Of a stretch of 64,000 nucleotides of DNA, positions 33,440 to 47,500 are shown one piece after another; the first letter of the stretch is position 1; each line of letters starts with the position of its first letter. Location of the stretch: the NCBI GenBank assembly GCA_017471045.1, contig JAFUWZ010000018.1:1-64000 (forward strand), written 5' to 3'. The notes below the pieces were generated by a model. It was not told the origin of the DNA, did no database searches, and was given only the letters and a program-made list of their open reading frames with translations. A program made the translations under genes and the position numbers. Source of the DNA: Bacteroidales bacterium (lineage in GTDB: Bacteria > Bacteroidota > Bacteroidia > Bacteroidales > UBA932).

Positions 33440-34279
33440 ATGGCGCGAAAACCCATCATCGCACTGGTCTATGACTTCGACGGGACCCTGTCGCCCGGTA
33501 ACATGCAGGAGTTCGGTTTCATCCAAACCATCGGCAAGACGCCGGAGGAGTTCTGGCAGATGAGCGACAACATCGCCATCGGGCAGGACGCGAGCAACGT
33601 GCTGGCCTACATGAAACTCATGTTCGATGAGGCCCACAAGGCCGGCATCCGGCTCAGCCGCACCGAGTTCCGCCGGTTCGGCAAGCACATCCGCCTGTTC
33701 GAAGGCGTCCGGGAGTGGTTCGCACTCGTCAACACATACGGGGACTCTAAGGGCGTCAAGATCGAGCATTACATCAACTCCTCGGGGCTGAAAGAGATCA
33801 TCGAGGGCAGTCCGATCGCCCACGAGTTCAAGCACATCTTCGCCGGCACCTTCATTTACAACGAGGCCGGTGAGGCAGAGTGGCCGGGCATTGCCGTGGA
33901 TTTCACCGCCAAGACGCAGTTCCTGTTCAAGATCAGCAAAGGGATCTTTTCCTCGCGCGACAACAAACGCGTCAACGAGAGCATCTCGGACGAGCAGAAG
34001 CGCATCCCCTTCCCGCACATGATCTATTTCGGCGACGGGCAGACCGACGTGCCTTGCATGAAGATCGTCAACATGTTCGGAGGCAATTCGGTCGCAGTGT
34101 ACAACCCCTGCGACGAGATTGGCAAAGGGGTCGCGATGAAACTGAAGCGCCAGGGACGCGTCAATTTCATCACGCCGGCCGTCTATACCCGGGACAGCCG
34201 CACCTTCCAGGTCGTGTGCGCGATCATCGACAAGATCAAGGCCGAGTGGGATCTCCAGCGGCTCGCGGCCCGAGTGTAG
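33440..34279 (+). CDS. HAD-superfamily phosphatase
   Basis: A 279-residue HAD hydrolase. Motif I is YDFDGTLSPG near residue 11 with the nucleophile Asp, motif II is YINSSGLKE, and motif IV is FGDGQTDVPCM. The cap region is mostly helical. Substrate unknown; it may be a phosphoserine/phosphoglycolate-type phosphatase but nothing decides. The ATG at 33440 gives the family N-terminus. Convergent with folE with only three nt between. Confidence 0.8.
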   Translation: MARKPIIALVYDFDGTLSPGNMQEFGFIQTIGKTPEEFWQMSDNIAIGQDASNVLAYMKLMFDEAHKAGIRLSRTEFRRFGKHIRLFEGVREWFALVNTYGDSKGVKIEHYINSSGLKEIIEGSPIAHEFKHIFAGTFIYNEAGEAEWPGIAVDFTAKTQFLFKISKGIFSSRDNKRVNESISDEQKRIPFPHMIYFGDGQTDVPCMKIVNMFGGNSVAVYNPCDEIGKGVAMKLKRQGRVNFITPAVYTRDSRTFQVVCAIIDKIKAEWDLQRLAARV

Positions 34280-34282
34280 GCG

Positions 34283-34870
34283 CTATTTGATCAGATTGAG
34301 GAACTCGTTGCGCGTGCGCGGGTCCTTCAGGAATACACCGGAGAAAGCGGATGTCGTCGTGACGGCATTCGCTTTTTCGACGCCCCGCAGCTGCATGCAG
34401 GTGTGGTGCGCCTCGATGACAACAGCTACGCCCAAGGGGTGCAAGGCCTCCTGGATGCAGTCGCGGATCTGCACCGTCAGGCGCTCCTGGACCTGCAGGC
34501 GCCGGGCGTAGGTCTCCACGACGCGCGCGATCTTGCTCAGGCCGGTGATCTTGCCGTTGGGGATGTAAGCGACGTGGGACTTGCCGATGAAAGGCAGCAT
34601 GTGATGCTCGCAGGTGCTGTAGAGTTCGATGTCCCGGACCAGCACCATCTGCTGGTACTCCTCGTCAAACATGGCGGACTGGATGATGGAGATACCGTCT
34701 TCGCCATAACCTTTCGTCAGGTATTGGAGAGACTTGGCGACGCGCTCCGGGGTCTTCAGCAGGCCTTCACGGTTCTCGTCTTCACCCAGCAGGCGAAGGA
34801 TCTCTTTGACATGGCCCGCTATTTGCTCTGTGACGGGTCCGTCGTACGAGTCGTTCTTTTTGTAAGACAT
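34283..34870 (-). CDS. folE: GTP cyclohydrolase I
   Basis: Opens GTP to dihydroneopterin triphosphate, the first step to folate. The 195-residue protein has the zinc site Cys87-x-His89-His90 in TCEHHMLPF, the [15 protein letters not shown] substrate segment and a late HHTCMQLRG that gives the third zinc Cys. Length is normal. It is transcribed leftwards alone, divergent from the DUF2795 gene. Confidence 0.95.
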
Positions 34871-34918
34871 CGGTTATAAGGGACTTTTGCGATTGCTCTG
34901 CAAAAATAAACAAAAAAA

Positions 34919-34948
34919 TTTGTTGTGTTGAATTTTTATATATCTTTG
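34919..34948 (+). promoter_or_regulatory. Predicted promoter for DUF2795 gene
   Basis: TTTG at 34919-34922, spacer of 18, and TATCTTTG at 34941-34948: good fit to the Bacteroidota -33/-7 consensus. The leader to ATG 35012 is about 55 nt. Confidence 0.6.
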
Positions 34949-35011
34949 CTGCCAAAAGGGAGACCCCTTTCATGGCTATATTTTAGTTATTGACTTTTAA
35001 CTCATTCGACT

Positions 35012-35233
35012 ATGTATTGGACACTCGAACTTGCCAGCAGCCTGGACGATGCTCCCTGGCCGGCAACGAAAGACGAATTGATAGACTATGCCAACCGCTC
35101 CGGCGCCGCCGAAGAGGTGATTGAAAACTTGCAGGAACTCGAAGACGACGGCGAGATCTACGAAAGCATCGAAGACATCTGGCCCGACTACCCCACCAAG
35201 GATGATTTCTTTTGGAACGAGGAAGAGTATTAG
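35012..35233 (+). CDS. DUF2795 small protein
   Basis: A 73-residue acidic protein starting MYWTLELASSLDDAPWPAT and ending FFWNEEEY; the order ATKDELIDYANRSGA, LQELEDDGE and EDIWPDYPTKDDF matches a small family common in Bacteroidales (DUF2795). The function is unknown. It lies immediately left of the island boundary and its own promoter lies upstream, so it is taken as chromosomal, not part of the island. Confidence 0.85.
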   Translation: MYWTLELASSLDDAPWPATKDELIDYANRSGAAEEVIENLQELEDDGEIYESIEDIWPDYPTKDDFFWNEEEY

Positions 35234-35270
35234 GGGGGGGGTAAACACCTGAAAATAAGCAATTTATGCC

Positions 35271-35304
35271 GATTGGGTACGATTTTCACGGATCGTACCC
35301 AATC
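35271..35304. repeat. Perfect 13-bp inverted repeat before the island's left repeat
   Basis: gattgggtacgat (35271-35283) and atcgtacccaatc (35292-35304) are exact reverse complements with an 8-nt loop. It lies 28 nt left of the 36-bp direct repeat and is followed by tcgcattctatcgcat, a sequence with one substitution also present at 41229. It could be a terminator for the DUF2795 gene or part of a recombination site. Confidence 0.75.
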
Positions 35305-35331
35305 GCATTCTATCGCATACTGTCGAATTAA

Positions 35332-35367
35332 AAACGTACACAAAAACAGACACAACTTTGTAACGGT
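35332..35367. repeat. 36-bp direct repeat, left copy of island
   Basis: Starts aaacgtacacaaaaacagac and ends acaactttgtaacggt. It matches 45952-45987 at 35 of 36 positions (A/T difference at position 15). It marks the left edge of the accessory island; a truncated BspA-like gene abuts it. Confidence 0.85.
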
Positions 35368-35373
35368 GGTGTA

Positions 35374-35721
35374 ATGATGTTTCAGGATTGCATCGCATTG
35401 ACCACCGCCCCAGAACTTCCTGCTACTATACTGGCAGAGGATTGTTATCAGTGTATGTTTCAAGGCTGCATAGGCTTGACCGCTGCTCCTGCCCTTCCGG
35501 CGACATCTTTGGCAAACGGATGCTATGGAGCTATGTTTTATGGTTGTAGTAACTTGAATTACATCAAGATGCTTGCTACAAATATATCTGCATCTAATTG
35601 CCTTTATAACTGGGTTAATGGTGTTTCAGCCACAGGCACTTTTGTAAAGAGTTCTTTTGCAACTTGGGATGTTTCTGGCAGTAGTGGTGTTCCTGATGGT
35701 TGGACAGTAGAGACAGAATAA
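35374..35721 (+). pseudogene. BspA-like leucine-rich-repeat fragment
   Basis: About 115 residues of BspA/TpLRR-type repeats: repeated CIALTTAPELPATILAEDCY and CIGLTAAPALPATSLANGCY units, ending with the usual WDVSGSSGVPDGWTVETE tail. A full-length member would have many more repeats and a signal peptide. The reading frame opens only a few bases past the 36-bp repeat, so its 5' part seems to have been lost in the event that created the boundary. An expressed intact small LRR protein is less likely. Confidence 0.7.
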
Positions 35722-35822
35722 CTTTGAGAAATCACACTTTTAAGGGAGCCCCAAACAGGTTCCCTTTTTTTTCTCTTTGAAATTGCATACCTTTGAAATA
35801 GACTAGAAAAAGAGTTAAGTGT

Positions 35823-36014
35823 ATGACACAGATTGTACTTACAGTTCCCAATGGAGAGGTATCCTTCCTTTCTACTCTTGCAGAGAAGATGGGGTGGAGT
35901 TTCCAGACCAGTGAGAACCTTGTCGAGAAGTTCATCGCTTCCTGTCCAACAGATGTCAGTATTTCAGATGAAGAGATTCAGGCAGAAGTGGATGCTGTCA
36001 GATACGGTATTTGA
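35823..36014 (+). CDS. Antitoxin-like protein, copy 1 (63 aa)
   Basis: A 63-residue protein starting MTQIVLTVPNGEVSFLSTLAEKMGWSF and ending in an acidic helix DEEIQAEVDAVRYG. The N-terminal pattern PN-x-x-x-x-F-(x2)-L-(x3)-MGW also begins the antitoxin-like protein at 36059. The acidic C-terminus is the type that binds an RelE/ParE toxin. There is no toxin directly after this copy, so it looks like a duplicated or orphan antitoxin. Confidence 0.6.
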   Translation: MTQIVLTVPNGEVSFLSTLAEKMGWSFQTSENLVEKFIASCPTDVSISDEEIQAEVDAVRYGI

Positions 36015-36058
36015 TTTGTCGATTATCTTTATTAGATTTGCAAAAATGGAGGTACGCT

Positions 36059-36274
36059 ATGGCTAATGGAGTATATGTAAATATCCCCAAGAATGATATG
36101 CCCTTCTTCCGAAAGCTTTCAAAAAGAATGGGCTGGACATATTCTGCTCAGACAGAAAAGCAGGAGACCTTGAAGAGCATAGAGCAAAGCTTCAAGGAAT
36201 TGAAGTCAGCCCAGGAGAAAGGCGAGAATCTGCCTGGGGTGGAGGAGTTGTTTGCAGCGCTTCAATCGGCATAA
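36059..36274 (+). CDS. Type II antitoxin-like protein, copy 2
   Basis: A 71-residue protein starting MANGVYVNIPKNDMPFFRKL, sharing its N-terminal MGWTYS segment with copy 1 and having a helical C-terminus (FKELKSAQEKGENLPGVEEL). It lies three nt before the RelE-like toxin gene, the usual antitoxin-first arrangement; together they form a type II toxin-antitoxin pair. It probably also represses its own operon. Start ATG 36059 is chosen over an earlier in-frame ATG at 36011 because the homology to copy 1 begins here. Confidence 0.7.
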   Translation: MANGVYVNIPKNDMPFFRKLSKRMGWTYSAQTEKQETLKSIEQSFKELKSAQEKGENLPGVEELFAALQSA

Positions 36275-36277
36275 CAT

Positions 36278-36619
36278 ATGGTCAAGATCTCATATTTACC
36301 TGAGTTCTTGAAACAGGCAAAACACTTGACAAAGAAGTATCCTTCTTTTCCGGAGGACTTAAAGGTCTTTATAAATGAGATATCCGGAAATCCCCTTGCC
36401 GGTGCTGATTTGGGAGGTGGTGTCAGGAAGGTCAGGATGTCTATAAAAAGTAAAGGAAAAGGGAAAAGTGGCGGAGCCAGAGTGATTACATTCAACTATA
36501 TGCTCGACGATGACAACAGGGATATTACCCTGATGACAGTATATGACAAGTCAGAGAGAGAAACCATTTCTGACAAAGAAATCATCGAACTTAGAGATGC
36601 CATACTGGGGTCAGAATAG
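36278..36619 (+). CDS. RelE/HigB-type toxin
   Basis: A 113-residue basic protein: MVKISYLPEFLKQAKHLTKKYPSF ... FINEISGNPLAGADLGGGVRKVRMSIKSKGKGKSGGARVITFNY ... ITLMTVYDKSERETI. This is the RelE/ParE-superfamily mRNA-interferase pattern, with the characteristic FxKxxKxLxKKYP start and late FLMTVYDKSE. It should block translation unless bound by the antitoxin encoded three nt upstream. A terminator-type hairpin lies downstream at 36809. Confidence 0.82.
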   Translation: MVKISYLPEFLKQAKHLTKKYPSFPEDLKVFINEISGNPLAGADLGGGVRKVRMSIKSKGKGKSGGARVITFNYMLDDDNRDITLMTVYDKSERETISDKEIIELRDAILGSE

Positions 36620-36808
36620 CTTGGGATAGTGATTTTGGATAGAATGCTGTCATTTTGTGGCTTTTGGCCAGTCTCATACTACCCAAGTGACTACCCCCGA
36701 CCTTCAAAGACGAACATAACTCTCTGATAATAAATACATTTCACCCACTGAACCATAACTGGAATGAAGAGGAATATTAGATTGATTATCAAATAGTTAG
36801 CTATTTTT

Positions 36809-36838
36809 GAGCCCGTTTTTAAGGAAACGGGCTCTTTT
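36809..36838 (+). terminator. Terminator hairpin of the toxin-antitoxin operon
   Basis: gagcccgttt (36809-36818), loop ttaagg, aaacgggctc (36825-36834) followed by tttt: a perfect 10-bp stem with a short T run on the plus strand. It may also serve the convergent helicase gene. Confidence 0.75.
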
Positions 36839-36856
36839 GTTACAGCTGCAGTTTTG

Positions 36857-39544
36857 TTATTGACTCTTAGCTAATGCAGATACTAATTTCTCTTTTTCTC
36901 TGGATCCGTCAGTTCTGAGTCGAAGCAAAGGTAATCCGATAGCGGCAAGGACTGAATCTTTAACCCTATCCCTTTTCCCTTGAGCAGAATCTACTTTGTG
37001 ATACTGCGTTCCATCAACCTCTATGGCCAACTTTGCTTTATGCGAAACGGTGTCATAGATTAAGAAATCGAGGTGTGTCCAAGAGTGAGACGCATAAGTC
37101 CGCAGTTCATCCGTCAATTCAGATTTCGGTGTAATCAAGTACCGGAGCGGATAATGCATCAAGACACCGAGGTGTTCACAGCCCCTCTCTTTGAACACTT
37201 CCTGAATAGTCCAATAAGCCAGGTTTTCTGAATCAAACTCTGATACTTTCTTATGGGTTTCATAAAAGCGAAGAAGCTCCTTGTTGTTCTCTTCATAGAG
37301 CAAGTCAAAAACAGACGAAATCTGACTTTGCTGTGCTCCACCTTGATAATACTCGATGTAATCAATCAGGTTTTGAATATTTGAGTCCGGCTGCTCATCC
37401 GATGAAACAACAAGTGTAAACTGCTTTTTTGCCCGCGAAACCGCCACATTAATCAGGTGAGGGTCATCAGTGAATTCGCTTACCTGATTATCAACGGTGG
37501 AGAGGATAATGGCATCATTCTCTCGGCCTTGAAACTTATGAACGGTGGCGACGACATAATTGTATCCACGTGCTTCCAATGAATCATTTATTGCTTCCAC
37601 TTGATCATTATAGGGCGCAATGATTCCGATATCTTTGAATTCTACTTCTATCGATGGAATGATTTCCTGAACAATGGCATCAATCTGCCGATTATTAACT
37701 GTGCCTCTTGCGTGATTCCCCCGAACTGTCCGAATAACACGAATCGGAACATAGGAGCACTCATCTTTCTTCATGGGGATTAGTTCCCCGCCATAGAACT
37801 GCCTGCTGCAGAATCCAATAATCTGAGGATGGCAGCGGTAATGCTCTCGGAGTAGCGTTTCTGGGATTTGTGGATAGAGGCTGCAGATGGAGGACAAGAA
37901 ACTGTTCGTAGAATACCTGTATGATTCACTGATGCCGTACTTGGCGAAGATGGCACTCACTACCTCTTCTGTCTTGGAGTCAACCACATTTGGAAGTTGC
38001 TTGAGGTCGCCAACGATTACTGCGTTATCGGCACAGCTGAGGGCCAACGCTCCTGCCGCAATATCAACCTGCGATGCCTCGTCCATAATCAGGTAATCGA
38101 ACTTGCATGCAGGGTTGATGTTAGATGTTGCCGAAAAAGTAGTACTCAGTATTACTGGATACTCTTTTAGGAAATCCCTGCTCTTAAAATAGAGTTCATC
38201 TGGCTCAAACTTAGCTCTGACTTTATGACGCCCATATGCCTGATACAAGTAGTCCTTCAAAACCAGCATGGACAATTCGCGCAAACGGGCATTCTTGGCA
38301 TCTGCATCCTTTGTTCTTGCCTCAAGGAACTTCCGGTCTGATTCGAGCAATTCAATCTTTGATTCAACGAGAAGGTATTGAAGTGTATCAACGATATCAT
38401 CTTCAACGGGGATTCGATGCCAACGTAGTCTTAAGCGAGTCAACCATGATAGCCGATGTTTCTTTTCCATATCCCGCTGGCAGAGACGGAAATACTTGTG
38501 CAGAATCTTATATGAGTACTTCCTCTCCAAAGAGACCTTCTTAGGGAATAAATCAATCTGGCGTTTATACGCTTCAAGCTTTTCGAGGTCAATTGCAAGA
38601 TGCTCTTGACACTCATAGAGCTCTTGCATTTCTCTGGATAACTGAACAGCCGCTTTGCGAACTGCCCCTGCATTCTCAAGTTTCCAAGACTCAACGTCAG
38701 GATACTCTCCGGTCTGACTCTCAATAAAGGCGTTTTTATTCTTGACACGCCCCAGTTGTGCACAAATGAAATCAAGCCCTGCAGATTGGAGCTTTTCCTT
38801 AACATTCTCTACAGCCGAATTGTTATTTGAGACGATTTCCGTCGTCTTGCCCGCAATCAACAGATTGGATAGTATATTGAGAATGGTCTGCGTTTTCCCG
38901 GTACCAGGAGGGCCTTGGATGACACTTAGTTTGTGTTCCAAAGCATTGCGCACTGCTTTGTATTGACTTCGATTACATCCAAAGGGGAAAATAGGCGCAC
39001 TTGGAGTACCAGCATCCTCAGGGTATGTATCGATATTGAGATAAGCTTCTAAAAGTGAGTTCTTTACAACGAACTCCATCTTTTTGTACTTGTCTGCGAG
39101 GCTTACGGTCTTCTCCTCTTTATCAGCAACCGGAATGACATTGTACTTAGCTACCTCATTGAGATACTCCCAGACATTGATTGAGCGCTTATCATCGATA
39201 TGCTCTTCTATATATAGATACGATGAGGGATAGTTTTTTGCATTTCCATTCTCGTATATGATTCTATAAGCACGATTTTCCCTTCCTTGGAATACACGGA
39301 CACCAAGAATATGATGGAAGACCTCTCCGTCTGATTTCCGCCTTATCCTAAACGGCGGCTCCAATTGACGGCTAAACATGGCAACATCAACATTCTCAGG
39401 ATTATAATGTAAAACCTTCTGACCTTGACGAAATCGTACGTAGAATTGCCCCTTTTTATCATCAAATCCAAACTGATCAAGATCGTCCGATAGCTTGAAT
39501 ACCCCGGATCGTTTCAAGAAAACTATTTGCTGGGTTGATGGCAT
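36857..39544 (-). CDS. SF1 helicase with C-terminal nuclease-like domain (DNA2/NAM7-like)
   Basis: An 895-residue helicase-nuclease. Walker A GPPGTGKTQT is near residue 210, Walker B is LIMDEASQVD, motif V/VI include DAIILSTVDNQV and VAVSRAKKQFTLV, placing it in the SF1 UvrD/Dna2-NAM7 group. The C-terminal ~120 residues carry the DUF2726-like pattern HWTHLDFLIYD ... AIEVDGTQYHK with an E-x-D/K type nuclease signature. The ATG at 39544 gives the conserved N-terminus. Such proteins are common in defence islands; it is in the repeat-bounded island between a TA pair and an AlbA_2-type regulator. Confidence 0.82.
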   Translation of the reverse strand: MPSTQQIVFLKRSGVFKLSDDLDQFGFDDKKGQFYVRFRQGQKVLHYNPENVDVAMFSRQLEPPFRIRRKSDGEVFHHILGVRVFQGRENRAYRIIYENGNAKNYPSSYLYIEEHIDDKRSINVWEYLNEVAKYNVIPVADKEEKTVSLADKYKKMEFVVKNSLLEAYLNIDTYPEDAGTPSAPIFPFGCNRSQYKAVRNALEHKLSVIQGPPGTGKTQTILNILSNLLIAGKTTEIVSNNNSAVENVKEKLQSAGLDFICAQLGRVKNKNAFIESQTGEYPDVESWKLENAGAVRKAAVQLSREMQELYECQEHLAIDLEKLEAYKRQIDLFPKKVSLERKYSYKILHKYFRLCQRDMEKKHRLSWLTRLRLRWHRIPVEDDIVDTLQYLLVESKIELLESDRKFLEARTKDADAKNARLRELSMLVLKDYLYQAYGRHKVRAKFEPDELYFKSRDFLKEYPVILSTTFSATSNINPACKFDYLIMDEASQVDIAAGALALSCADNAVIVGDLKQLPNVVDSKTEEVVSAIFAKYGISESYRYSTNSFLSSICSLYPQIPETLLREHYRCHPQIIGFCSRQFYGGELIPMKKDECSYVPIRVIRTVRGNHARGTVNNRQIDAIVQEIIPSIEVEFKDIGIIAPYNDQVEAINDSLEARGYNYVVATVHKFQGRENDAIILSTVDNQVSEFTDDPHLINVAVSRAKKQFTLVVSSDEQPDSNIQNLIDYIEYYQGGAQQSQISSVFDLLYEENNKELLRFYETHKKVSEFDSENLAYWTIQEVFKERGCEHLGVLMHYPLRYLITPKSELTDELRTYASHSWTHLDFLIYDTVSHKAKLAIEVDGTQYHKVDSAQGKRDRVKDSVLAAIGLPLLRLRTDGSREKEKLVSALAKSQ

Positions 39545-39545
39545 A

Positions 39546-39854
39546 TTATTTTTTGAAGAGGACTTTCCAGGAGCTGCCGTAGTCGGGGCCGATGTGTACG
39601 ATAATCTGTCTCTCTTGCAGGGATGCAAGATGATATTTTATGGTGTCTTCAGATTTGTCAATTAATTCTGCCAGGCCCTTGCGGGTGATTTTTGGGTCGG
39701 CAACAATGGCATCGATGATGGCCTGAGCCGTTTTGCCAATCTTCTTCCGGCTTGTTTTCGCATCTTTCTCCGGGTGACTTCTCTGGGTGAATTTTCTGGG
39801 TGAATTCTCCGTTCTCTGGGTGAATTTTCTGGGTGAGTTTTGCGAAGTCGGCAT
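39546..39854 (-). CDS. Out-of-frame winged-helix C-terminus of the AlbA_2-type gene
   Basis: A 102-residue frame that carries the winged-helix end expected for the upstream AlbA_2-type protein: AIIDAIVADPKITRKGLAELIDKSEDTIKYHLASLQERQII. It starts inside the 13-bp repeat array and is +1 shifted from the upstream frame. Deleting one 13-bp unit in the array would fuse the two frames. Whether it is translated on its own is unknown; its own ATG at 39854 precedes a TQ-rich linker. Confidence 0.5.
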   Translation of the reverse strand: MPTSQNSPRKFTQRTENSPRKFTQRSHPEKDAKTSRKKIGKTAQAIIDAIVADPKITRKGLAELIDKSEDTIKYHLASLQERQIIVHIGPDYGSSWKVLFKK

Positions 39855-41013
39855 CCGTCATCCCATAATTGGCGTTGGGAATGGTGGTGTAGAAGAATTC
39901 ACGGCTGGATTCGAAGACCGGCCTGCGCTCCGGCTTGTAGGTAGGAAGAAGGGCCGTGGCATCCAGAATCTTACGCAGTCCGCTGCCGCGCTTTTCCATG
40001 TAGCGCCGCTGGGAGAATACTTCAGCGATGATGGGGTTGCGACGCTTGGAGGTAATTTTTTCCGGTTCCAGACGAATGGGGTCAAAGCCGTCCGTTATGC
40101 CGCCGGGAGAGGTGGTTTCTATGCGGTCATCATAAATATTGATGGCAACTTCAGAACCAAGTTCGCTGTAGTCACGGTGGATGAGGTGGTTCACGCACAT
40201 CTCTTCTATGGCTCTCTTGGCGTATTCCGGAAGGTTGAGCCGATAGTCCAGGAGTTTGTACCAGCGCACCGCCGTGTTGGCCTTGATGAAGTTTTTTGCC
40301 ATGTCCAGCAACAGGAGCAGGTTGCCCTGATACTCGGAGTCGTTGACAGCATCGGTTTTGATGGTTCCGTTCCACTTGGTGCAGAATACACGGGACTGGG
40401 CGATGGGACAGCGGTCTGCAAACAAGAGGCCTGCGTGCGTGAGGTGCCCGTCGTCGGTGACAAGGCCGAAGGAGTTCAGTAGACCTTCTTCCCATACGGA
40501 GCCGGAACGCTGGTTGTATTCGCGCTCAAGGGTGCTGAAAGTGTGTTTCTCCCGAAGTTCATTGGAGACCAAAGAGTCCCAGCTGCGATTGCTGCCCCGA
40601 AGGACAAGTTCGAACAACTCGTGGGGCGTTGCCGGAATGCTTTCATTTCCGCGTCGCACATTGGCGATGCGCTTGCCATCCAAATTCAGATAGTAGGGCG
40701 TCTGCATCCCGGCAGGAACCTGGAGAACGATGATAATCAGTCCTTCCGGGGTTGTTATGGGATTCAAAGAATAGACAGGCACCGGGTCAAGATGCGCATT
40801 AATCTTCTCACTGATGAATTCAAGGTCCTTCTGGGGATTGGTTACGCCGATGACTTTTGCATCATCGTCAACGCCGAAGAAAAGCGTGCCGCCTGCCGTA
40901 TCGGCAAAAGCGCTCACACTCTTGAGCCAACTGCGAATCTTCCTCCGCTCAAGTACCCCCTTGAAATCATAGGCCGTACATTCGGCAATGAGTATGTTGT
41001 TTTCTATTCTCAT
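39658..41013 (-). CDS. AlbA_2/ATP-binding RecG-like regulator, frameshifted 3' end
   Basis: A 451-residue frame. Residues 1-110 form the AlbA_2/Schlafen-like ATP-binding region (FKGVLERRKI ... SVSAFADTAGGTLFFGVDDDAKVIGVT), followed by the C-terminal ATPase half with HRDYSELGSEV, EKRGSGLRKI. Family members usually end with a winged-helix domain; here the last ~40 residues leave the family frame inside a 13-bp repeat array (39770-39836) and the winged helix continues in the next frame at 39546-39854. The gene may thus be phase-variable or broken. Family members act as transcriptional regulators or helper NTPases in conflict systems. Confidence 0.75.
   Translation of the reverse strand: MRIENNILIAECTAYDFKGVLERRKIRSWLKSVSAFADTAGGTLFFGVDDDAKVIGVTNPQKDLEFISEKINAHLDPVPVYSLNPITTPEGLIIIVLQVPAGMQTPYYLNLDGKRIANVRRGNESIPATPHELFELVLRGSNRSWDSLVSNELREKHTFSTLEREYNQRSGSVWEEGLLNSFGLVTDDGHLTHAGLLFADRCPIAQSRVFCTKWNGTIKTDAVNDSEYQGNLLLLLDMAKNFIKANTAVRWYKLLDYRLNLPEYAKRAIEEMCVNHLIHRDYSELGSEVAINIYDDRIETTSPGGITDGFDPIRLEPEKITSKRRNPIIAEVFSQRRYMEKRGSGLRKILDATALLPTYKPERRPVFESSREFFYTTIPNANYGMTDADFAKLTQKIHPENGEFTQKIHPEKSPGERCENKPEEDWQNGSGHHRCHCCRPKNHPQGPGRIN
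39770..39836. repeat. 13-bp tandem repeat array within AlbA_2-type gene
   Basis: The unit ctgggtga with a/t-rich tail (13 bp: ctgggtgaatttt) occurs at 39783, 39796, 39816 and 39829, with a degenerate first copy ccgggtga at 39770. Spacings are 13, 13, 20 and 13. Because 13 is not a multiple of three, unit gain or loss changes the reading frame. It encodes TQKIHPE-type residues. Confidence 0.8.
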
Positions 41014-41343
41014 AAGTCTTTTGTATCAATTGTGAACGCGCTGCATTCACTATCTGTGGGGTTGCTTTGCAAATGTCGCAAATAATTGTGATGCGGACAA
41101 GTATGTAAATGCGTATTTTTGTTGGTAGAGGAAGTACCTTGGCGCATGAGCGCAGGAACGGACTTAAAAGCACGTCTTACTTCCGGATAAGTTCTTTGAG
41201 GTCATTTAAGGAAACATTGTTTTGATTGTCGCATTTTATCGCATTATATCACACGATAAACAGACACATATCCGTACACATAAACGTACACAGAATCCAA
41301 AAAGAGACAGTAATGGTAGACTCCGCGAAAAACAATCTAACGC
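41014..41343. other. 330-bp intergenic stretch with third diverged 36-bp repeat
   Basis: No gene is recognisable between the AlbA_2-type gene and the TOTE-type gene. The stretch contains tcgcattttatcgcat (41229), matching tcgcattctatcgcat near the left island edge, and the diverged repeat copy at 41282-41317. Two gtacaca motifs lie between them. Confidence 0.5.
41282..41317. repeat. Diverged third copy of the 36-bp repeat
   Basis: Begins aaacgtacacagaatccaaa and ends agtaatggt. Against the left copy 24 of 36 positions match, concentrated at both ends: the first 11 bases are identical and the last eight differ by one base. It sits between the two halves of the island. Confidence 0.5.
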
Positions 41344-42768
41344 TCATCTTCCCGTCATATACCCCAGCATATCAGATGCAATCACTGGGGCCAGTACGCG
41401 CATGACATTATCCTCCTCTTTGTGGTGGCTCCCTGCAAGGTCAATGCTGCCAAACCAGAACAAGGAACGGTCTATAATAGCCGCGCGGATAGGTTGCCGC
41501 TCAGTTTTAACAAGTTTAATCCCAACTTTGATGAAATCTTCATCTCGAGAAGATGGCTTCCGGATAGTAATACAGCATTCGACACCACGTATGCCCAAAG
41601 CCTGCAGAGCCTTGGCTAAAGTACCTCTCATATACTGAACCGACTCGCAAGAAAGGACAACCGAGGACTGCGCCGCCTCAATGTCGCCTACTAGAACCGG
41701 AAGGAAGGTATCCGGGCCAAGAACGATATCCTGTGGATTCTGTTCCAAAGCGTCCGTCATCTGCCGGGCATAGCCAATAGGCGCGTAGCATTTCAGTCGC
41801 TTGCCGTACATATTGGCAATAACAGGGACGTGGATATCGATATAATCGTAAACACGCACCTCGGTTTTGCCTTCATAATCCCGATGGAGACGCCCCGTAT
41901 ATTGCTGGACAATATTCGGATAGGCAACCGGTAGGGCTATGAAGAGCGTATCCAGCCTGGGATAAGTGAAACCTTCGCCCACATACTTCTCGGTTGCAAT
42001 GATTATAAGTGGCTCCGTCTCCGGGATACTTTTGAGCCGATCCATCGCCTTCCGCTTCTCCTTAGCCGATGCAGTACCAATCAACTGAACCACATTCCGG
42101 CAATAGGGAGCCAGCATATCGGCAAGTAGGGAGATGTGGTCTTTCCGCTTTGTCAGGATAATTGGTGACCGGCCCTCGTTCAATTCAGCCACAACATCTT
42201 GCACAATCAAGTCATTCCTGGCACGGTCGTTGGCTAAATCGCCAAGGTATTGCAAGGAGTTCCCGTTCTCCTCTATCGCCCGAAAAGGAGTAAAACGCGG
42301 AATCAAAACTCGGCTAAAAGACTGTCGGGACATCTGCGCCTTCGCATCCGACTTATATCGAATCGGACCGCACTGCATGAACACAATGGGTGTCATCCCG
42401 TCTTGACGGGTGGGAGTTGCCGAAAGTCCATACACATATCGGGCATTAACATACTTCAGCACACGCTCATAGCCAATGGCCCCGGAATGATGGCATTCAT
42501 CGGCTATCACCATCCCGTAGTTTCGGACAAATGGCTTGACGCCTTCCTCCGACAACGCGGAATTGAACACGGCAATATCTATGATGTCGTGCAGCGTATT
42601 CCGGCTCCCGTCCAGTAGGCCGACAGGAGAGAACGCCCTTTTTCTTCCCCGTCCTTTCTTCTTTTCTGATTCGGGTTTTGATTCATTGATAATCAAGAAC
42701 TTTTCAATCTCTTCCTTCCATTGTTCCAGCAGGGCCTTGGAATGAACCAATAGTCTTTCGTCTTGCAA
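41344..42768 (-). CDS. SF2 helicase/PLD part of a TOTE-type gene (split)
   Basis: Continues the primase frame 42704-44173 after a frameshift: LLVHSKALLEQW is where the helicase picks up again. It carries SF2 motifs DECH (residues 90-93), LSATP, and GRLHRDYEGK, and a C-terminal PLD-like domain (RAAIIDRSLFWFGSIDLAG) typical of TOTE-family helicases. In related proteins the PLD usually has the HxK histidine; here that position reads R-A-A-I-I-D, so nuclease activity is uncertain. The reading frame is intact after the break. Confidence 0.8.
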   Translation of the reverse strand: MQDERLLVHSKALLEQWKEEIEKFLIINESKPESEKKKGRGRKRAFSPVGLLDGSRNTLHDIIDIAVFNSALSEEGVKPFVRNYGMVIADECHHSGAIGYERVLKYVNARYVYGLSATPTRQDGMTPIVFMQCGPIRYKSDAKAQMSRQSFSRVLIPRFTPFRAIEENGNSLQYLGDLANDRARNDLIVQDVVAELNEGRSPIILTKRKDHISLLADMLAPYCRNVVQLIGTASAKEKRKAMDRLKSIPETEPLIIIATEKYVGEGFTYPRLDTLFIALPVAYPNIVQQYTGRLHRDYEGKTEVRVYDYIDIHVPVIANMYGKRLKCYAPIGYARQMTDALEQNPQDIVLGPDTFLPVLVGDIEAAQSSVVLSCESVQYMRGTLAKALQALGIRGVECCITIRKPSSRDEDFIKVGIKLVKTERQPIRAAIIDRSLFWFGSIDLAGSHHKEEDNVMRVLAPVIASDMLGYMTGR

Positions 42769-44173
42769 TCATTCCAATTACAGCAACCGTTTTTCCGAAA
42801 GCGGTGGTCGCTGCGAGCACTCCGTTATTGTATGAGAGCAGTCTTTGGACGGCCTCCTCCTGCTCCGGGCGAAGTTCTCCGGAAAAAGAAACATCTATTG
42901 GCCTTCCCGCGTTGGTCTGGTCATCCTCTTCCCACGCCGAGAAATTGCTTTGAAGCAGTTCTATCACGGCGTCCTCGCATCCTCTTGGCAGTTTAAGGTA
43001 ATCTTCCGTCATCTCATAACAGGTCACGAGGGATGGCGTGTGATATAGCGGCTTCCTGGCGTTAAGTAGCTCATAGTATTTGGGATTCTGGAAAGAGGCC
43101 AGCCCTTTAAGATGCCTGAGAACCTTTCCAGAAACGCTCTTTATCAGCACATAAACCCCATTCGCCCGAACAAGTTTGACGGGGCCGAAGAAATCTTCAA
43201 ATGAAATGCGGTCCGGCTTCGGCGTATCCCATGGTTTGGTCTCCGATGACGAGGACAACTCTATCTGATACGCGTGATTTGCCAGAATGGCTTTAAACTC
43301 CGCAACAGTGAGTTTCCTTGCCGATGATAAAAGAGACCATTGGTCCTGATAAGCCTCAAAGTCCTCGTCCACAAAAACACTGTTGCCACTTTTTCGGGCC
43401 AAGCCCTGCAATGGGAGCGCAATCAGGTTTCCGAAGCCGCCTTTCGGCAAGAAATCCTGATTCGGCAGGAATCGGTCGTAGGATTTCATATCCAGACGGA
43501 CATTGCGTTCCATGGCGGCACCGATGATAGCGAAGCCTAATCTTCGGGCGTCCGCAGCTAATACCGGATCATCAAAGAAGATCCATACATGTGCCCCTTT
43601 TCCAGAACGCGAACGCTCGATGTATGCAGGAACATCCCATTCCTTGCAGACACGAACATACGAAAGGACATCGTCCTGGTAGCCATACTCGCAGTTCTTG
43701 TCATCGAAATCGGCGCAGAGGAAGTAAACCATGTTGTCCTCAAGGATAGGATAAATGCCGATGACATCTGTCTCCTTTGCCTCTTTATCCAGATGTCTGC
43801 GAATAATCACCTCGTCGAGCGGGATAAACTCCCTGAAAGGGCAACCCTCACACTTTCGCTTGTGCTCTACACACCCGTCCGACCACCTGTTCTTGCATAC
43901 CGGTTGATAACCAGCCTTACCCACTTTGGAAACGAAACGCTGCGCAAACACATCTTCCCGACCTCGGAACAAACCACGGAAGATGTCTAAACGGCGTTGG
44001 ATTTCCGCTTCTCTGTTCCGTTCTGCCTGTATTAGTCTGCTGTTATATTGGGGCGGCTCCGGCTCATACAACAACGAAGAACCATAACCTTTCAAGCGGG
44101 CATTCTCCTGCTCCAACTCGTGGATTCGCGCTCGCAATCGAAGGTTTTCAGCCAGAAGCTCTTCGTAAGTCAT
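42704..44173 (-). CDS. TOTE-type archaeo-eukaryotic primase part (split gene)
   Basis: A 489-residue frame. Residues 3-30 form a coiled coil; a Cys cluster C93-x7-C101-x6-C108-x2-C111 is probably a zinc finger; the AEP primase has CADFDDK (Asp155, Asp157) and SGKGAHVW (His195). The helicase Walker A region AATTAFGKTVAV is near residue 465, after which the frame shifts (about 42750-42768) to the downstream SF2 part. Full-length homologues are a single primase-helicase-PLD chain; here the break lies just after Walker A, so the protein is probably non-functional unless the shift is a sequencing error or programmed. Confidence 0.8.
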   Translation of the reverse strand: MTYEELLAENLRLRARIHELEQENARLKGYGSSLLYEPEPPQYNSRLIQAERNREAEIQRRLDIFRGLFRGREDVFAQRFVSKVGKAGYQPVCKNRWSDGCVEHKRKCEGCPFREFIPLDEVIIRRHLDKEAKETDVIGIYPILEDNMVYFLCADFDDKNCEYGYQDDVLSYVRVCKEWDVPAYIERSRSGKGAHVWIFFDDPVLAADARRLGFAIIGAAMERNVRLDMKSYDRFLPNQDFLPKGGFGNLIALPLQGLARKSGNSVFVDEDFEAYQDQWSLLSSARKLTVAEFKAILANHAYQIELSSSSETKPWDTPKPDRISFEDFFGPVKLVRANGVYVLIKSVSGKVLRHLKGLASFQNPKYYELLNARKPLYHTPSLVTCYEMTEDYLKLPRGCEDAVIELLQSNFSAWEEDDQTNAGRPIDVSFSGELRPEQEEAVQRLLSYNNGVLAATTAFGKTVAVIGMIARRKTIGSFQGPAGTMEGRD

Positions 44174-44218
44174 GGGGTCATTAACTTGTCTTACATCCTG
44201 TTAAACCATTGACACATT

Positions 44219-44265
44219 TCAATTGGGCTAAACCAATGCAAAAATCATCGTTTTAGCCCAATTGA
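44219..44265. repeat. 47-bp palindrome downstream of DUF234-type ATPase
   Basis: tcaattgggctaaa (44219-44232) and tttagcccaattga (44252-44265) form a perfect 14-bp stem with a 19-nt loop. It abuts the ATPase stop codon at 44266-44268. It matches the palindrome at 45740-45786 in arm length, loop length and most arm bases. Confidence 0.85.
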
Positions 44266-45699
44266 CTATTTGAATAAGTCAAACATTGTGATGGTACGCT
44301 TGACCGCTCCGCTATTGATTCCAGACTTTAGTCCATACGTAGTCAGAAGAGTTGGTACAATTCCATACTTGGTGCCAGTCTCCTTCCTGAACTTGGAAAC
44401 TCTATTTTGGATTTTGCCTTTATCCTCTGCGGTCAATTCATATTCATCTTCAGATGTATATTTTACTTCGCAAAGATTAATGATTCGATCGGCTCGTTCA
44501 ATGATAATATCCACCTGCACATTCCGCTCTTTTGAATCCGGATCTTTTTTCCCGCGCCAGGAATAATACTCTGTCCTGACAGAAGGCACACCAAGTGCTG
44601 ACAAAATCTGCGGCATGTGAGCCTGACACACCCTCTCATAAGCAAGCCCCCACCATGTGCTTTGCACCTGAGATTCCAGTGTTTTAGTCCAGTATTGCGT
44701 GTCGGTCGTTCTGGCTTTTCCAAACTCATGGTAGAAAATAGAATAAAAGTCCGTCAGGCAATAAATCCCTCCGGTCGCGCTTATTTTTTTGACCTTGATA
44801 TTATAGAGACGAATAAAATCACAATTCACCAAGTCTTCCAGCATATCTGACAAATGGCCATTGTTCTCTATTTTCAGTTTCTCAGCTATCTCAGACCTTG
44901 TAAGTCCCTTTCGTGTATCAGCCAGGGCCTTGATTATATCCATATATCTTTCCGGATTGGTAAATAGAGACTTGTACAAGCGATTATATTCTTTCTTCAA
45001 CTCGGCTTTCCGAGAGAAGAACAGAGCGTCGATATTCTGGGCAAGGCTAAGCTCCGGATTTAGCAAACTCAGATAATATGGTATTCCGCCAAGAATCATA
45101 TATGCCTGAACTACGGTAAGAGTATCCCATTCAGCACCCACTGACTTGAGGTACACCTCTGTATCGGCAAGAGTAAATGGATAAAGGTGCATTTCGTGCG
45201 TTATCCTGTCATGCAGACCTCCTTTGTTGTCAATCAGGTTTCTGACTATCCATGATGTGGCACTGCCGCAAACAATGAGGAAAATCTCAGGATGTTTGGA
45301 AGCCCAATCATTCCAAAAATGGTCCAACTGCTTAACAAAACCCGAATTACGCGTTGCGAAACATGGCAGTTCATCAAGAAAGATTACGCAGCGTGTCCCC
45401 TCCGACAATTTACTCAACAATAGAGATTTCAGGGCGCGAAATGCTTCTCTCCAATTTTTGGGGGCATCTCCCATAAAGCCATAATCAACCAACGCATCTC
45501 CAAAAGCCTCTATCTCGTCCTTGAACTTTCCGCCGAGGATACCTGTTGCCGAGAATGCGAACGAATCATTGAAGTATGTGCTGACGAGAAAGGTCTTTCC
45601 AACTCTACGACGACCATATACTGCGATGAATTCGGCTTTATCTGATTCCATATACCGCTTTAATTCGGCAACTTCTTCTTTTCTACCTATGATATGCAT
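44266..45699 (-). CDS. AAA ATPase with C-terminal DUF234 nuclease-like domain
   Basis: A 477-residue protein starting at ATG 45699. An AAA/archaeal-type ATPase has Walker A GRRRVGKT (residues 29-36) and Walker B VIFLDELP; it is followed by a winged-helix segment and the DUF234 domain, whose VQVDIIIERADRIINLCEVKYT holds the PD-(D/E)xK-like D...E-x-K. Family members occur in many copies in Bacteroidota and archaea and are suspected mobile or host-defence genes; function is not established. It is bracketed by 47-bp palindromes at 44219 and 45740, making a 1568-bp unit. Confidence 0.82.
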   Translation of the reverse strand: MHIIGRKEEVAELKRYMESDKAEFIAVYGRRRVGKTFLVSTYFNDSFAFSATGILGGKFKDEIEAFGDALVDYGFMGDAPKNWREAFRALKSLLLSKLSEGTRCVIFLDELPCFATRNSGFVKQLDHFWNDWASKHPEIFLIVCGSATSWIVRNLIDNKGGLHDRITHEMHLYPFTLADTEVYLKSVGAEWDTLTVVQAYMILGGIPYYLSLLNPELSLAQNIDALFFSRKAELKKEYNRLYKSLFTNPERYMDIIKALADTRKGLTRSEIAEKLKIENNGHLSDMLEDLVNCDFIRLYNIKVKKISATGGIYCLTDFYSIFYHEFGKARTTDTQYWTKTLESQVQSTWWGLAYERVCQAHMPQILSALGVPSVRTEYYSWRGKKDPDSKERNVQVDIIIERADRIINLCEVKYTSEDEYELTAEDKGKIQNRVSKFRKETGTKYGIVPTLLTTYGLKSGINSGAVKRTITMFDLFK

Positions 45700-45739
45700 A
45701 ACTAATTTAGCTTTTCTCAAAGATAACGATTTTTATGAT

Positions 45740-45786
45740 TCATTTGGGCTAAACCAAGAAATAATTTATCAATTTAGCCCAAATGA
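45740..45786. repeat. 47-bp palindrome upstream of DUF234-type ATPase
   Basis: tcatttgggctaaa (45740-45753) and tttagcccaaatga (45773-45786) form a perfect 14-bp stem with a 19-nt loop, 41 bp upstream of the start codon. Compared with the copy at 44219, arm position 4 changes A to T and its partner changes T to A, so pairing is preserved. Confidence 0.85.
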
Positions 45787-45849
45787 GTATTCCCGTATTC
45801 CTATGAAAGGGGGCGGTATGAACTGCTCCTGCTTCTCACCTTTAGGTAG

Positions 45850-45880
45850 TTGGAAAACTCGCGCAAAAAGTGTATATTTG
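45850..45880 (+). promoter_or_regulatory. Orphan promoter right of the ATPase unit
   Basis: TTG 45850-45852, spacer 20, TATATTTG 45873-45880 match the Bacteroidota consensus and point right, but no intact gene follows before the 36-bp repeat and the ATPase remnant. It may have driven the disrupted AAA_14/DUF4143 gene. Confidence 0.45.
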
Positions 45881-45951
45881 TAGAAGATCCTCTGTCTTTT
45901 GAGGCCTTAGTTCTTTGTCATCGTTTTTTATAGGCCCGCGATGTGTTGGAT

Positions 45952-45987
45952 AAACGTACACAAAATCAGACACAACTTTGTAACGGT
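45952..45987. repeat. 36-bp direct repeat, right copy of island
   Basis: Starts aaacgtacacaaaatcagac and ends acaactttgtaacggt; same orientation as 35332-35367 with one difference. With the left copy it bounds a 10.6-kb accessory island. Confidence 0.85.
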
Positions 45988-46123
45988 AATAGTTTGTTTT
46001 TATACGTTTTTGATTACGACTAAAGTCAAACCAAGAATACCAGTTTTGTGGAACATTGCAAAAAAGTTAATGACCTCAGATATGGGAATTCTTTCAGGAT
46101 CGGCAGGAAAGCATCAATGACCT

Positions 46124-46477
46124 GTGGACATAGGTGTCGTTGAGCGCCGTAAAATGGTCTATGGGAAGTCTGAATACAGGCAGTATGAGGTTGATTTCAT
46201 TGCTACTGACGGGAACGAGAAATACTATATTCAGTCGGCATACGAGATCGAAACCGAAGAAAAGCGTGAGCAGGAACTGAATTCGTTCAAACGCATTGAT
46301 GACTCCTTCCAGAAGATTGTCATTGTCAAGGATGACATTATGCCCTATAGGGACAATAACGGGGTCCTTTTCGTCGGCCTGTTCGAATTCCGCTCCAGCG
46401 ACAAACCCGCAGAAGTCCCATCGAATTTTATTGTAAAAGCACAGTGTTTTTCGACCGCCCCCCGATCCTTGGATTGA
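46124..46477 (+). pseudogene. C-terminal remnant of an AAA_14/DUF4143 ATPase
   Basis: About 105 residues matching the DUF4143 C-terminal end of AAA_14-type ATPases: VERRKMVYGKSEYRQYEVDFIATDGNEKYYIQSAYEI ... RIDDSFQKIVIVKDDIMPYRDNNGVLFVGLFEF. The ATPase core is missing and the frame is preceded by a stop at 46118, so the gene is 5'-truncated, close to the right 36-bp repeat. The last residues (QCFSTAPRSLD) are not family-like. Confidence 0.7.
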
Positions 46478-46504
46478 GTATATCACGAAAAATGAGTACT
46501 TTTG
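46474..46504 (+). promoter_or_regulatory. Predicted promoter of ElaA-like acetyltransferase
   Basis: TTG 46474-46476, spacer 20, TACTTTTG 46497-46504. The ATG follows four nt later, so translation would be leaderless. Confidence 0.6.
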
Positions 46505-46508
46505 TGCG

Positions 46509-46949
46509 ATGGCACTAATCCTTCATAAGAAATGGTTCTCGGAATTAACCACACAGGAGCTGTATGAGTTCCTGCGGATTCGCAATGACGTTTTCGTCGT
46601 GGAGCAGGACTGTGTGTATCAGGACCTGGATTACGATGACCAGCCTGCCATCCATCTCTGGCTCACGGAAGATGACAGAATCGTCGCACTATGCCGGGTT
46701 TGCCCGGCGGGTACGCACCTGGAGGAAGTTTCCATCGGCCGGGTCATCACAACCGTGCGGGGCAAGGGCTATGGCAAGCAAATCATGCTTGCCGGGATTG
46801 ATGCCGCAAAGGAGCACTTTGGAGCCAAGAGAATCGACCTTGAAGCGCAGGAGTATGCACGAGGTTTCTACCAGCAGGTGGGATTCCGGCAATCATCCGA
46901 GCCGTTTATGCTGGACGGAATCCCCCATATTAAGATGAGCCTAGTCTAA
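46509..46949 (+). CDS. GNAT acetyltransferase (ElaA-like)
   Basis: A 146-residue GNAT protein close to ElaA: KKWFSELTTQELYEFLRIRNDVFVVEQDC, the acetyl-CoA loop VITTVRGKGYGKQIM (R-x-x-G-x-G/A), and the late VGFRQSSEPFMLDGIPH. Acceptor unknown. It starts four nt after a -7 element and converges on the ferritin-like gene with nine nt overlap. Confidence 0.85.
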   Translation: MALILHKKWFSELTTQELYEFLRIRNDVFVVEQDCVYQDLDYDDQPAIHLWLTEDDRIVALCRVCPAGTHLEEVSIGRVITTVRGKGYGKQIMLAGIDAAKEHFGAKRIDLEAQEYARGFYQQVGFRQSSEPFMLDGIPHIKMSLV

Positions 46950-47324
46950 AAGGGCTTTGACAGTATCTCCGTGACGGGTTTCATCGTCGCGGACAGAGGC
47001 TACTTCCGGGAAGTCCGGGATGAGGTGCTCATAGCCCCTGGCGGCATTGTACTCAAACTTCGCAATGACCGGATAGAGAATCTTCCGGCCAGCTATCTTA
47101 TAAAGAATCGGCAGCAGACGGGCTTTCAGCATCTTTGGCTGAAGGACTTCGCCCGTATAGGCATGAAAGACAGAGGCATGCCGGCCTTCTTCTTTGGCCA
47201 GTTGCCGGAAGGTTTCCTTGTCACGTTCATGTTTTGCTACATCGGCAAGCGCGTTATACATGGGAACGGCATCCAATTCTCCCTGCTGTGCCTTGAGGAG
47301 TTCTTTTCTTTGTCTGTTCGTCAT
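46941..47324 (-). CDS. Ferritin-like (rubrerythrin/VIT-type) small protein
   Basis: A 127-residue helical protein with a ferritin-like di-iron pattern: LLKAQQGELDAVPMYNALADVAK (first E), then EEGRHASVFHAYTG (E-x-x-H) and a late DFPEVASVRDDETRHG (E/D-x-x-H). It lacks the rubredoxin domain of rubrerythrin. A peroxide- or iron-handling role is plausible but unproven. Convergent with the acetyltransferase. Confidence 0.75.
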   Translation of the reverse strand: MTNRQRKELLKAQQGELDAVPMYNALADVAKHERDKETFRQLAKEEGRHASVFHAYTGEVLQPKMLKARLLPILYKIAGRKILYPVIAKFEYNAARGYEHLIPDFPEVASVRDDETRHGDTVKALLD

Positions 47325-47500
47325 GACGCAAAGATAATCATTTTCAGAGATATAGGAGCCGGGCGGACAGAGATGATGCCTGAAGGGCTCATCTCCGGCT
47401 GTCTGGCTGTGGGTGCGTGTGCCGACACATAGGTCCCTGGCGCGGGGAGCTCCAGTGGACTTGACAGCTGCGCTGGCAAGTCGGCAGAAACGTGCGGGGC

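Follow-up and report, generated by a model that had tools for sequence, protein, structure and literature searches.

Probable tandem cassette array at the 3′ end of a DUF2795 gene behind two 36-bp direct repeats in a Bacteroidales contig

Contig JAFUWZ010000018.1 of a Bacteroidales bacterium (GenBank assembly GCA_017471045.1) carries, in its first 64,000 nucleotides (hereafter the window), two widely spaced 36-bp repeats enclosing an unusually A+T-rich segment, and the question that this locus raises is what these repeats delimit. The copies, at 35332-35367 and 45952-45987, are in direct orientation and 35/36 identical (97%), and GC content between them is 45.8%, as compared with 58.3% and 57.8% in the 10-kb flanks. 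Repeat comparison and base composition thus confirmed two statements of an initial annotation of this DNA, which had further taken the repeats for the bounds of one 10.6-kb accessory island. We find that the 36-mers probably are not the boundaries of a single island and look like arm-type repeats inside cassette ends, and that the region from 35234 to about 46500 is best interpreted, with a probability of roughly 0.8, as a decayed tandem array of cassettes inserted serially at the 3′ end of a DUF2795 gene by arm-domain tyrosine integrases. Genomes compared are designated by G-numbers (G000 being the genome that holds the window, 73 contigs and 2,617,858 bases), and loci by L-numbers.

The 36-mer is not a dispersed repeat, which the initial annotation had considered as a possibility fatal to its island: with up to three mismatches allowed, the genome has these two copies only, about 1.6e-7 pairs of this kind being expected by chance in 2.6 Mb, and no match was seen in 60 other genomes searched. 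When one mismatch was allowed, G000 alone among 400 genus genomes had two copies of the site, with one control hit (G129). A promoter role for the 36-mer was considered and rejected on inspection by eye.

The gene preceding the left repeat provides the anchor. A DUF2795 homologue is present in 75/101 genus genomes, with folE beside it in relatives among the matches listed, and the sequence 3′ of it varies widely from genome to genome among the loci read, shared cassettes excepted, so that the continuous synteny which the initial annotation had weighed against an island was not seen downstream of DUF2795. The last 18 bp of the gene, AAYGARGARGARTAYTRR (hereafter the tail), have exact matches in 71/101 genus genomes, with about 0.009 expected per genome by chance and no match of the reversed pattern across the same 101 genomes. 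On 20 contigs, from 18 of these genomes, 2-5 copies of the tail share one contig, always on the same strand, and the 27 tail-to-tail intervals span 811 to 20,077 bp with a median of 1,547 bp (22/27 are shorter than 3.1 kb), giving a cassette size of 0.8-20 kb, median 1.5 kb. Several of these multi-tail contigs, e.g. G069:C15 and G095:C6, lack the DUF2795 gene. Tail copies outside the gene have unrelated sequence 5′ and cassette left ends 3′, as expected of attR-type sites formed by integration into the 3′ end of a gene, and in the window the 3′ end of the target gene recurs as a direct repeat, at 35216 and 36763. The last ~18-21 bp of the gene would thus likely serve as the attachment core. 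A decayed tail at about 41125-41145 was considered by eye and rejected, and no search supports it.

Across the order, the 18-mer was found in 82/324 genomes; since nine genomes match the reversed control, single matches in this set are partly due to chance. The DUF2795 gene lay at the match in 18 of 20 order loci fetched, and G060, G504, G656, G511 and G690, which belong to other families, each had a second tail on the same contig and strand. In the stretches fetched, the first of the two copies belonged to the DUF2795 gene in G060, G656, G511 and G690, and the gene was not found in the fetched stretch of G504. At 12 loci (L006, L011, L013, L014, L021, L026-L028, L032, L034, L085 and L098) contigs end no more than about 240 bp behind DUF2795, a sign that the hotspot breaks assembly and is under-counted.

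Cassettes from different genomes share their ends. Left ends of family 1 run from the tail through a hairpin, 10-mers and two to four 12-mers to an inverted unit, TTTTGTAACGG; tail, hairpin, 10-mers and 12-mers were all present in 23/23 aligned examples, out of 27 left-end sites of which four (two window copies, the tail-less G417 site and the G387 site at a contig start) were not aligned. Right ends consist of 10-mers, ATAAAC and two 12-mers, followed by the tail, which lies 52-147 bp past the match in 12/17 cases (two, both in G326, with one mismatch); the five matches without a following tail are two in the window and those in G244, G247 and G005, and the pattern gave one control hit, in G372. 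The 36-mer is itself an array of such 12-bp repeats, the type of which tracks the Arm domain of the integrase: TTACCGC is found in G034 and G023, TTAACAC in G276 and G078, and CGTACAC/CAGACAC in G252, G183 and the window. Among the four family-1 integrases (G252, G276, G034 and G023), those with differing repeat types are 48-64% identical over the first 90 aa versus 83-93% elsewhere, and the one pair with the same repeat type is 89% identical over the first 90 aa and 95% over the remainder; pairs with the more distant G074 integrase show 33-42% and 52-53%, respectively. Since repeat type and first 90 aa vary together, we read the 12-mers as arm-type sites, most likely bound by the Arm domain, as these few pairs suggest. 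The 12-mers had also been considered as the crossover core, and were rejected in that role because their type follows the Arm domain.

The integrase of G252, an intact protein of 448 aa, has Arm-DNA-bind_5 (residues 17-86), SAM_5 and Phage_integrase domains. In a tree, 15 DUF2795-site integrases form one group (99/99) versus nine other integrases from G000. The latter come from 13 Phage_integrase matches, none of them on the window's contig (L143 and L145 were not entered, and L153 and L155 gave no usable open reading frame, or ORF). Among ten G000 integrases for which protein and upstream sequence were examined (a neighbouring ORF instead for L143, L146 and L152), none was of G252 type or had G252-type repeats. 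Related integrases lie no more than about 250 bp behind DUF2795 at 4/20 order loci (L261, L262, L264 and L272), and in G092 the integrase gene sits within a unit between two tails, reading away from DUF2795. The G276 element combines an integrase with a helix-turn-helix protein, a Toprim primase, a MobA/VirD2-type relaxase and a TraG-type coupling protein; with these last two, integrase-bearing elements look mobilizable, and autonomous members of this kind exist in relatives and not in the window. As the initial annotation had noted, there is no integrase among the ORFs scanned between the 36-mers. Both of its suggested explanations found support: the segment is degraded mobile-element DNA, and mobilisation in trans could have taken place. 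Because integrase-bearing elements and integrase-less cassettes share ends, the latter probably moved in trans.

The origin of the right 36-mer can be traced by its two sides. G252 carries the site once, in the order DUF2795, hairpin, 10-mers, 12-mers, inverted unit, AATAGTTTG and integrase, and G183 also has a single uninterrupted site with a decayed integrase adjoining, so that both the single-copy site and the neighbouring recombinase gene that the initial annotation had proposed to look for do occur. The left copy in the window matches G252 on its left side (83% over 360 bp), and the right copy on its right side (87% over 90 bp, 45952-46041), with a second match inside the integrase gene (87% over 60 bp, 46029-46088); what follows the right copy is therefore an integrase gene in decay. 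On the other side, 45720-45976 aligns with a cassette right end in G203 (L241), in which the tail comes 147 bp after the arm motif, and 45840-45974 aligns with G005 (L240), which has no tail within 170 bp. Given the G203 alignment to its left and the G252 match to its right, the right copy appears to consist of right-end arms joined to a left end, and G244 has an analogous right-end/left-end fusion. The left 36-mer would then be the arm array of a cassette left end next to DUF2795, and the right one a scar, in which the right end of the last cassette has apparently been fused to the left end of an older integrase-bearing element.

Read in this way, the stretch between the 36-mers most likely comprises at least three cassettes. 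As delimited by comparison with relatives, cassette 1 is the RelE unit with mixed ends (35234-36780), cassette 2 extends from 36781 to about 41200 and contains the helicase and the AlbA_2 protein, and cassette 3 (41229-45976) contains TOTE and PDC-S27 and is fused to the remainder of the old integrase-bearing element (45977-46088). Cassette 1 alone retains both tails. The left end of cassette 2 is homologous to post-tail sequence in G087, G069 and G003, and in G387 to the first 39 bp together with the tail. In G247 the equivalent of 41229-41292 comes immediately after DUF2795; both hairpin and tail are intact there, and the helicase part of TOTE is 90% identical. This third array (41282) had been considered as a chance occurrence, which was ruled out when it proved to be an arm array, and as a cassette right end, which was ruled out because G247 has its equivalent as a left end. 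A single 10.6-kb island bounded by the 36-mers is not supported, in view of the likely tail core, the three or more cassettes and the apparent fusion scar. The list of conflict genes in the initial annotation stood for RelE, the superfamily 1 (SF1) helicase, AlbA_2 and TOTE, all recognised by Pfam, and needs correction for DUF234, for which Pfam gave ATPase_2 and PADLOC gave PDC-S27. The decayed integrase at 45988-46088, the degenerate array at 41229-41292 and the tail copy at 36763-36780 were absent from it.

In relatives, the cassettes can be viewed as 26 tail-to-tail units on 20 genus contigs (18 of the multi-tail contigs plus G207 and G225), a set that leaves out the window, an 11.8-kb interval in G033 and a 20.1-kb interval in G091. 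More than half (15/26) hold a single ORF (at least 60 aa, greedy ORF choice), and their GC content is 0.36-0.49. A tblastn search with eight DUF2795-site integrase queries found an integrase in one unit, the 8.0-kb unit of G092; the other 25 have no integrase match and have att-type sites at both ends, as do cis-mobilizable elements (CIMEs). Pfam matches were obtained for 14 of 20 cargo ORFs chosen from 56, counting two just below the family cut-off (AIPR and KilA-N), and six had none. The other matches are AlbA_2 (two), Barstar, DUF4279, YoeB, Phd/YefM, FRG, DUF4238, PLD, a CAP12-type TIR effector, RelB and PIN, and AbiEi, AbiEii and Bro-N cargo was also identified; as judged from these matches, the annotated cargo includes toxin-antitoxin and defence-like genes. 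A cassette with AbiE and TOTE is 99.4% identical over 3,564 bp and 99.3% over 999 bp between G207 and G417, which are different species, and 93% identical over 4.7 kb between G207 and G387. The TOTE primase-helicase is intact, as one 942-aa ORF, in the G207 and G417 cassettes. In G417 (L204, oriented 1063-2424) a gene whose product we take to be a REP-associated tyrosine transposase lies between the DUF2795 tail and the AbiE-TOTE cassette, which has no hairpin end there, an arrangement in which the 12-mers possibly hold a further junction. A gene for a small membrane protein was found in 8/400 genomes, with a tail on the same short stretch at 6/8 loci and none seen at the other two.

The tail copies, the shared ends, the near-identical cassettes in different species, the integrase grouping and the two halves of the scar are all seen by comparison, and the history that we propose would be as follows. 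The N-terminal Arm domain of the integrase would bind the 12-bp direct repeats in the cassette ends, catalysis would take place at the tail, and each insertion would rebuild the last ~20 bp of DUF2795, leaving a further tail copy on the far side. Integrase-less cassettes may have been mobilised in trans by the integrases of mobilizable elements. Finally, cassette 3 would have recombined, through its right-end arms, with the left-end arms of the older integrase-bearing element, which would have yielded the right 36-mer and deleted roughly 200 bp, as estimated from intact ends and with a tail included, perhaps in one event.

Other explanations were weighed against this history. In a refinement of the initial annotation's model, a tyrosine recombinase would have placed a single 10.6-kb element, with the 36-mers as attL and attR, in the left end of a G252-type integrase-bearing element. 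In its favour, G252 and G183 have an uninterrupted copy, the left flank of which matches the window's left and the right flank its right, and each window copy has two 12-mers versus three in G252 and G183. We nevertheless regard this as unlikely, because the right copy is preceded by a known cassette right end, present in G203 and also in G005, which explains the junction without any insertion at the 36-mer; in addition, both a DUF2795 tail (36763) and another left end (41229) lie within the segment, repeat type changes with the Arm domain whereas the remainder of the integrase is conserved, and the doubled site is confined to G000 in the 400-genome search described above. It is less probable still that homologous recombination or an assembly error joined unrelated places sharing a 36-mer, with no organised array involved: the data are of metagenome type and the contigs of 12 loci stop no more than about 240 bp past DUF2795, but the analogous fusion in G244 and the same-strand tail copies in 18/101 genus genomes and five genomes of other families argue otherwise, and the k-mers usually employed in assembly are longer than 36 bp.

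A true integron, in which an integron integrase would capture cassettes via folded attC sites, might be suspected from the small, often single-gene tandem cassettes and from the integrase gene beside the anchor in relatives. We give this hardly any credence, since gene-end copies and 12-bp direct repeats make up the cassette joints, an Arm-DNA-bind_5 domain is present in the integrase, no attC-like match up to E 0.5 was found in 34500-47500 with the attC models that Rfam holds, and the G092 integrase gene, as noted above, is part of a tail-to-tail unit and points away from DUF2795. A phage satellite or prophage is not supported, as there are no phage structural or packaging genes among eight island proteins, the PHROGs matches of which are to helicases, primases or proteins of unknown function, or lacking. 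A phage collection gave no near match for 34000-47500, and 10 pattern matches to PDC-S27 relatives in viral contigs yielded no confirmed case.

Several points speak against the proposed serial insertion at DUF2795. Cassette movement is proposed from sequence comparison, the sequences come from metagenome bins or other genomes, and the join at 45952 may be chimeric. The window requires more than one deletion, as cassette 1 combines a family-1 left end with a differently built right end, and no tail is left between cassettes 2 and 3, a joint that calls for an extra deletion. G417 has a site without tail and hairpin, behind another gene. No second tail was seen in the sequence read of the G023, G034, G276 and G252 elements, so that tail use by family-1 integrases is deduced from cassettes that share their left end. 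Choosing the DUF2795-site rows by position and similarity biases the tree, and the grouping is support, not proof, of one clade. Among the loci compared, none showed a DUF2795 site that was still untouched and had a conserved right neighbour: among the genes in the window's right flank, only pgeF (a homologue at window positions 47536-48240) lies behind DUF2795 in a relative, where it follows the G276 element, and uvrA is near tails in G009 and G077 in differing orientation. GNAT, rubrerythrin and pgeF were rejected as a conserved right flank, since 29 GNAT loci inspected had no adjoining rubrerythrin, pgeF or ATPase remnant, and the right chromosomal edge of the array is therefore not fixed.

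Comparison with known systems places the array close to integrative mobilizable elements (IMEs), with what seems an outward likeness to integrons. Integrons hold tandem gene cassettes beside a tyrosine recombinase; here no attC or attI was seen, the cassettes have terminator hairpins and direct repeats, and the integrase is part of a mobile unit. The Dehalococcoides ssrA islands, in the parts of their description that bear on this comparison (PMC3146451), stand in tandem behind one gene, a tmRNA anchor, bounded by short direct repeats (20 bp) of its 3′ end, some of them without an integration module and with adaptive cargo. The present array resembles that description in its tandem units, gene-3′-end repeats, partly integrase-less members and adaptive cargo, and differs in its protein-gene anchor and its many ~1-kb cassettes with repeat arrays at both ends. 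The integrase of those islands is reportedly likened to the Ccr (SCCmec) type, rather than to arm-domain tyrosine integrases. IMEs and CIMEs, as far as the relevant portion of their account goes (PMC5704250), integrate at gene 3′ ends and accrete, incoming elements joining decayed neighbours that keep att sites. Integration at a 3′ end, accretion and relatives with relaxase and coupling protein (G276) are common to both; the present case differs from what is described there in its dense packing of very small cassettes, of which several carry defence-type genes, and in the fusion of neighbours through arm repeats. An N-terminal domain that binds subterminal arm sites is described for IntDOT in the section pertinent here (PMC8138268), and CTnDOT/NBU-type Bacteroides integrases share such a domain with ours, unlike which they have targets other than the DUF2795 3′ end; the DUF2795-site integrases form their own group in a tree with nine others from G000.

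No report of a DUF2795 insertion site was found in the open-access literature searched, in which DUF2795 occurs, judging by titles, in proteomics papers. As far as this search extends, the DUF2795 address, the dense arrays of small cassettes, some of them with defence-type cargo, the way repeat type and Arm domain pair within this clade, and the welding of cassettes via arm repeats would be new. We tentatively extend this, at somewhat less than even odds, to an order-wide, integron-like capture platform of Bacteroidales, in which DUF2795 would be a fixed port, mobilizable elements would supply a dedicated clade of arm-domain tyrosine integrases that insert and shuffle integrase-less, often single-gene, defence-rich cassettes in trans, and arm-repeat recombination would weld neighbours together. 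The DUF2795 3′ end behind folE is seemingly a fixed and easily searched address for small exchangeable genes in gut and rumen Bacteroidales; much of the annotated cargo resembles toxin-antitoxin or anti-phage genes, and inter-tail sequence lists candidate defence genes. As the 12-bp repeat type pairs with the Arm domain, integrase specificity is directly testable.

Table 1. Features of the window from the DUF2795 gene to the right end of the putative array
Feature	Position	Strand	Basis or remark
DUF2795 gene, 73 aa, hotspot anchor	35012..35233	+	PF11387, E 2.7e-19; folE just upstream
Putative attachment core, DUF2795 3′ end, TGG AACGAGGAAGAGTATTAG	35213..35233	+	18-mer copies in relatives
Terminator-like hairpin, cassette 1 left end	35270..35305	+	Inverted repeat; same place in 23 aligned left ends
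Left-end 10-bp repeats (CGCATTCTAT...)	35304..35330	+	Left-end alignment
Left 36-mer	35332..35367	+	Two 12-bp putative arm-type repeats, then inverted unit TTTGTAACGG
ORF directly 3′ of left 36-mer	35374..35721	+	PARCEL-repeat match, below its cut-off
Two small ORFs, antitoxin candidates; cassette 1 cargo	within 35823..36619	+	No Pfam match
RelE-type toxin (PF06296); cassette 1 cargo	36278..36619	+	Pfam
12-bp repeats ACTACCC.... in cassette 1 right end	36678..36701	+	Right end homologous to G087 and G009 loci
Second DUF2795 3′-end copy (18-mer at 36763-36780), attR-type boundary of cassette 1	36760..36780	+	
Cassette 2 left end (TTGATTATCAAATAGTTA and terminator hairpin)	36781..36840	+	
SF1 helicase (AAA_11/AAA_12) with C-terminal nuclease-like DUF2726; cassette 2 cargo	36857..39628	-	
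SLFN_AlbA_2/HATPase_c_4 protein	39546..41013	-	C-terminal winged helix in another frame
10-mers and three 12-bp arm repeats, cassette 3 left end, tail and hairpin lost	41229..41292	+	
AEP-TOTE primase-helicase	41344..44173	-	Two frames (42704-44173, 41344-42768)
ATPase_2 protein, PADLOC PDC-S27; cassette 3 cargo	44266..45720	-	
Cassette 3 right end, continuing into right 36-mer	45720..45976	+	G203 (L241) alignment
Right 36-mer	45952..45987	+	Right-end arms apparently joined to the arms and inverted unit of a left end
Decayed start and one internal piece of G252-type tyrosine integrase gene	45988..46088	+	
Remnant like ATPase C-terminus (PDC-S01, positions 330-407 of 412)	46124..46477	+	No Pfam match

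Some minor features of the segment complete the picture. The ORF next to the left 36-mer is, by its appearance, presumably the C-terminal fragment of a surface repeat protein, for which we assume the label BspA-like. The repeats in the right end of cassette 1 are perhaps another arm type, and would then have an arm role. The frame break in the AlbA_2/HATPase gene lies inside a 13/33-bp tandem repeat (39766-39844), and could be due to slippage (phase variation), decay or an assembly error. The PDC-S27 gene is flanked by 53-nt direct repeats (79% identical; 44218-44270 and 45739-45791), each of which forms a hairpin (TTTGGGCTAAACC...), and G203 shares the copy at 45739-45791. Pieces of the GNAT gene that follows the array (46509-46949) are found at about 14860-15012 of contig C57 in the same genome, as well as in G066:C21, as if it too had been shuffled in pieces.

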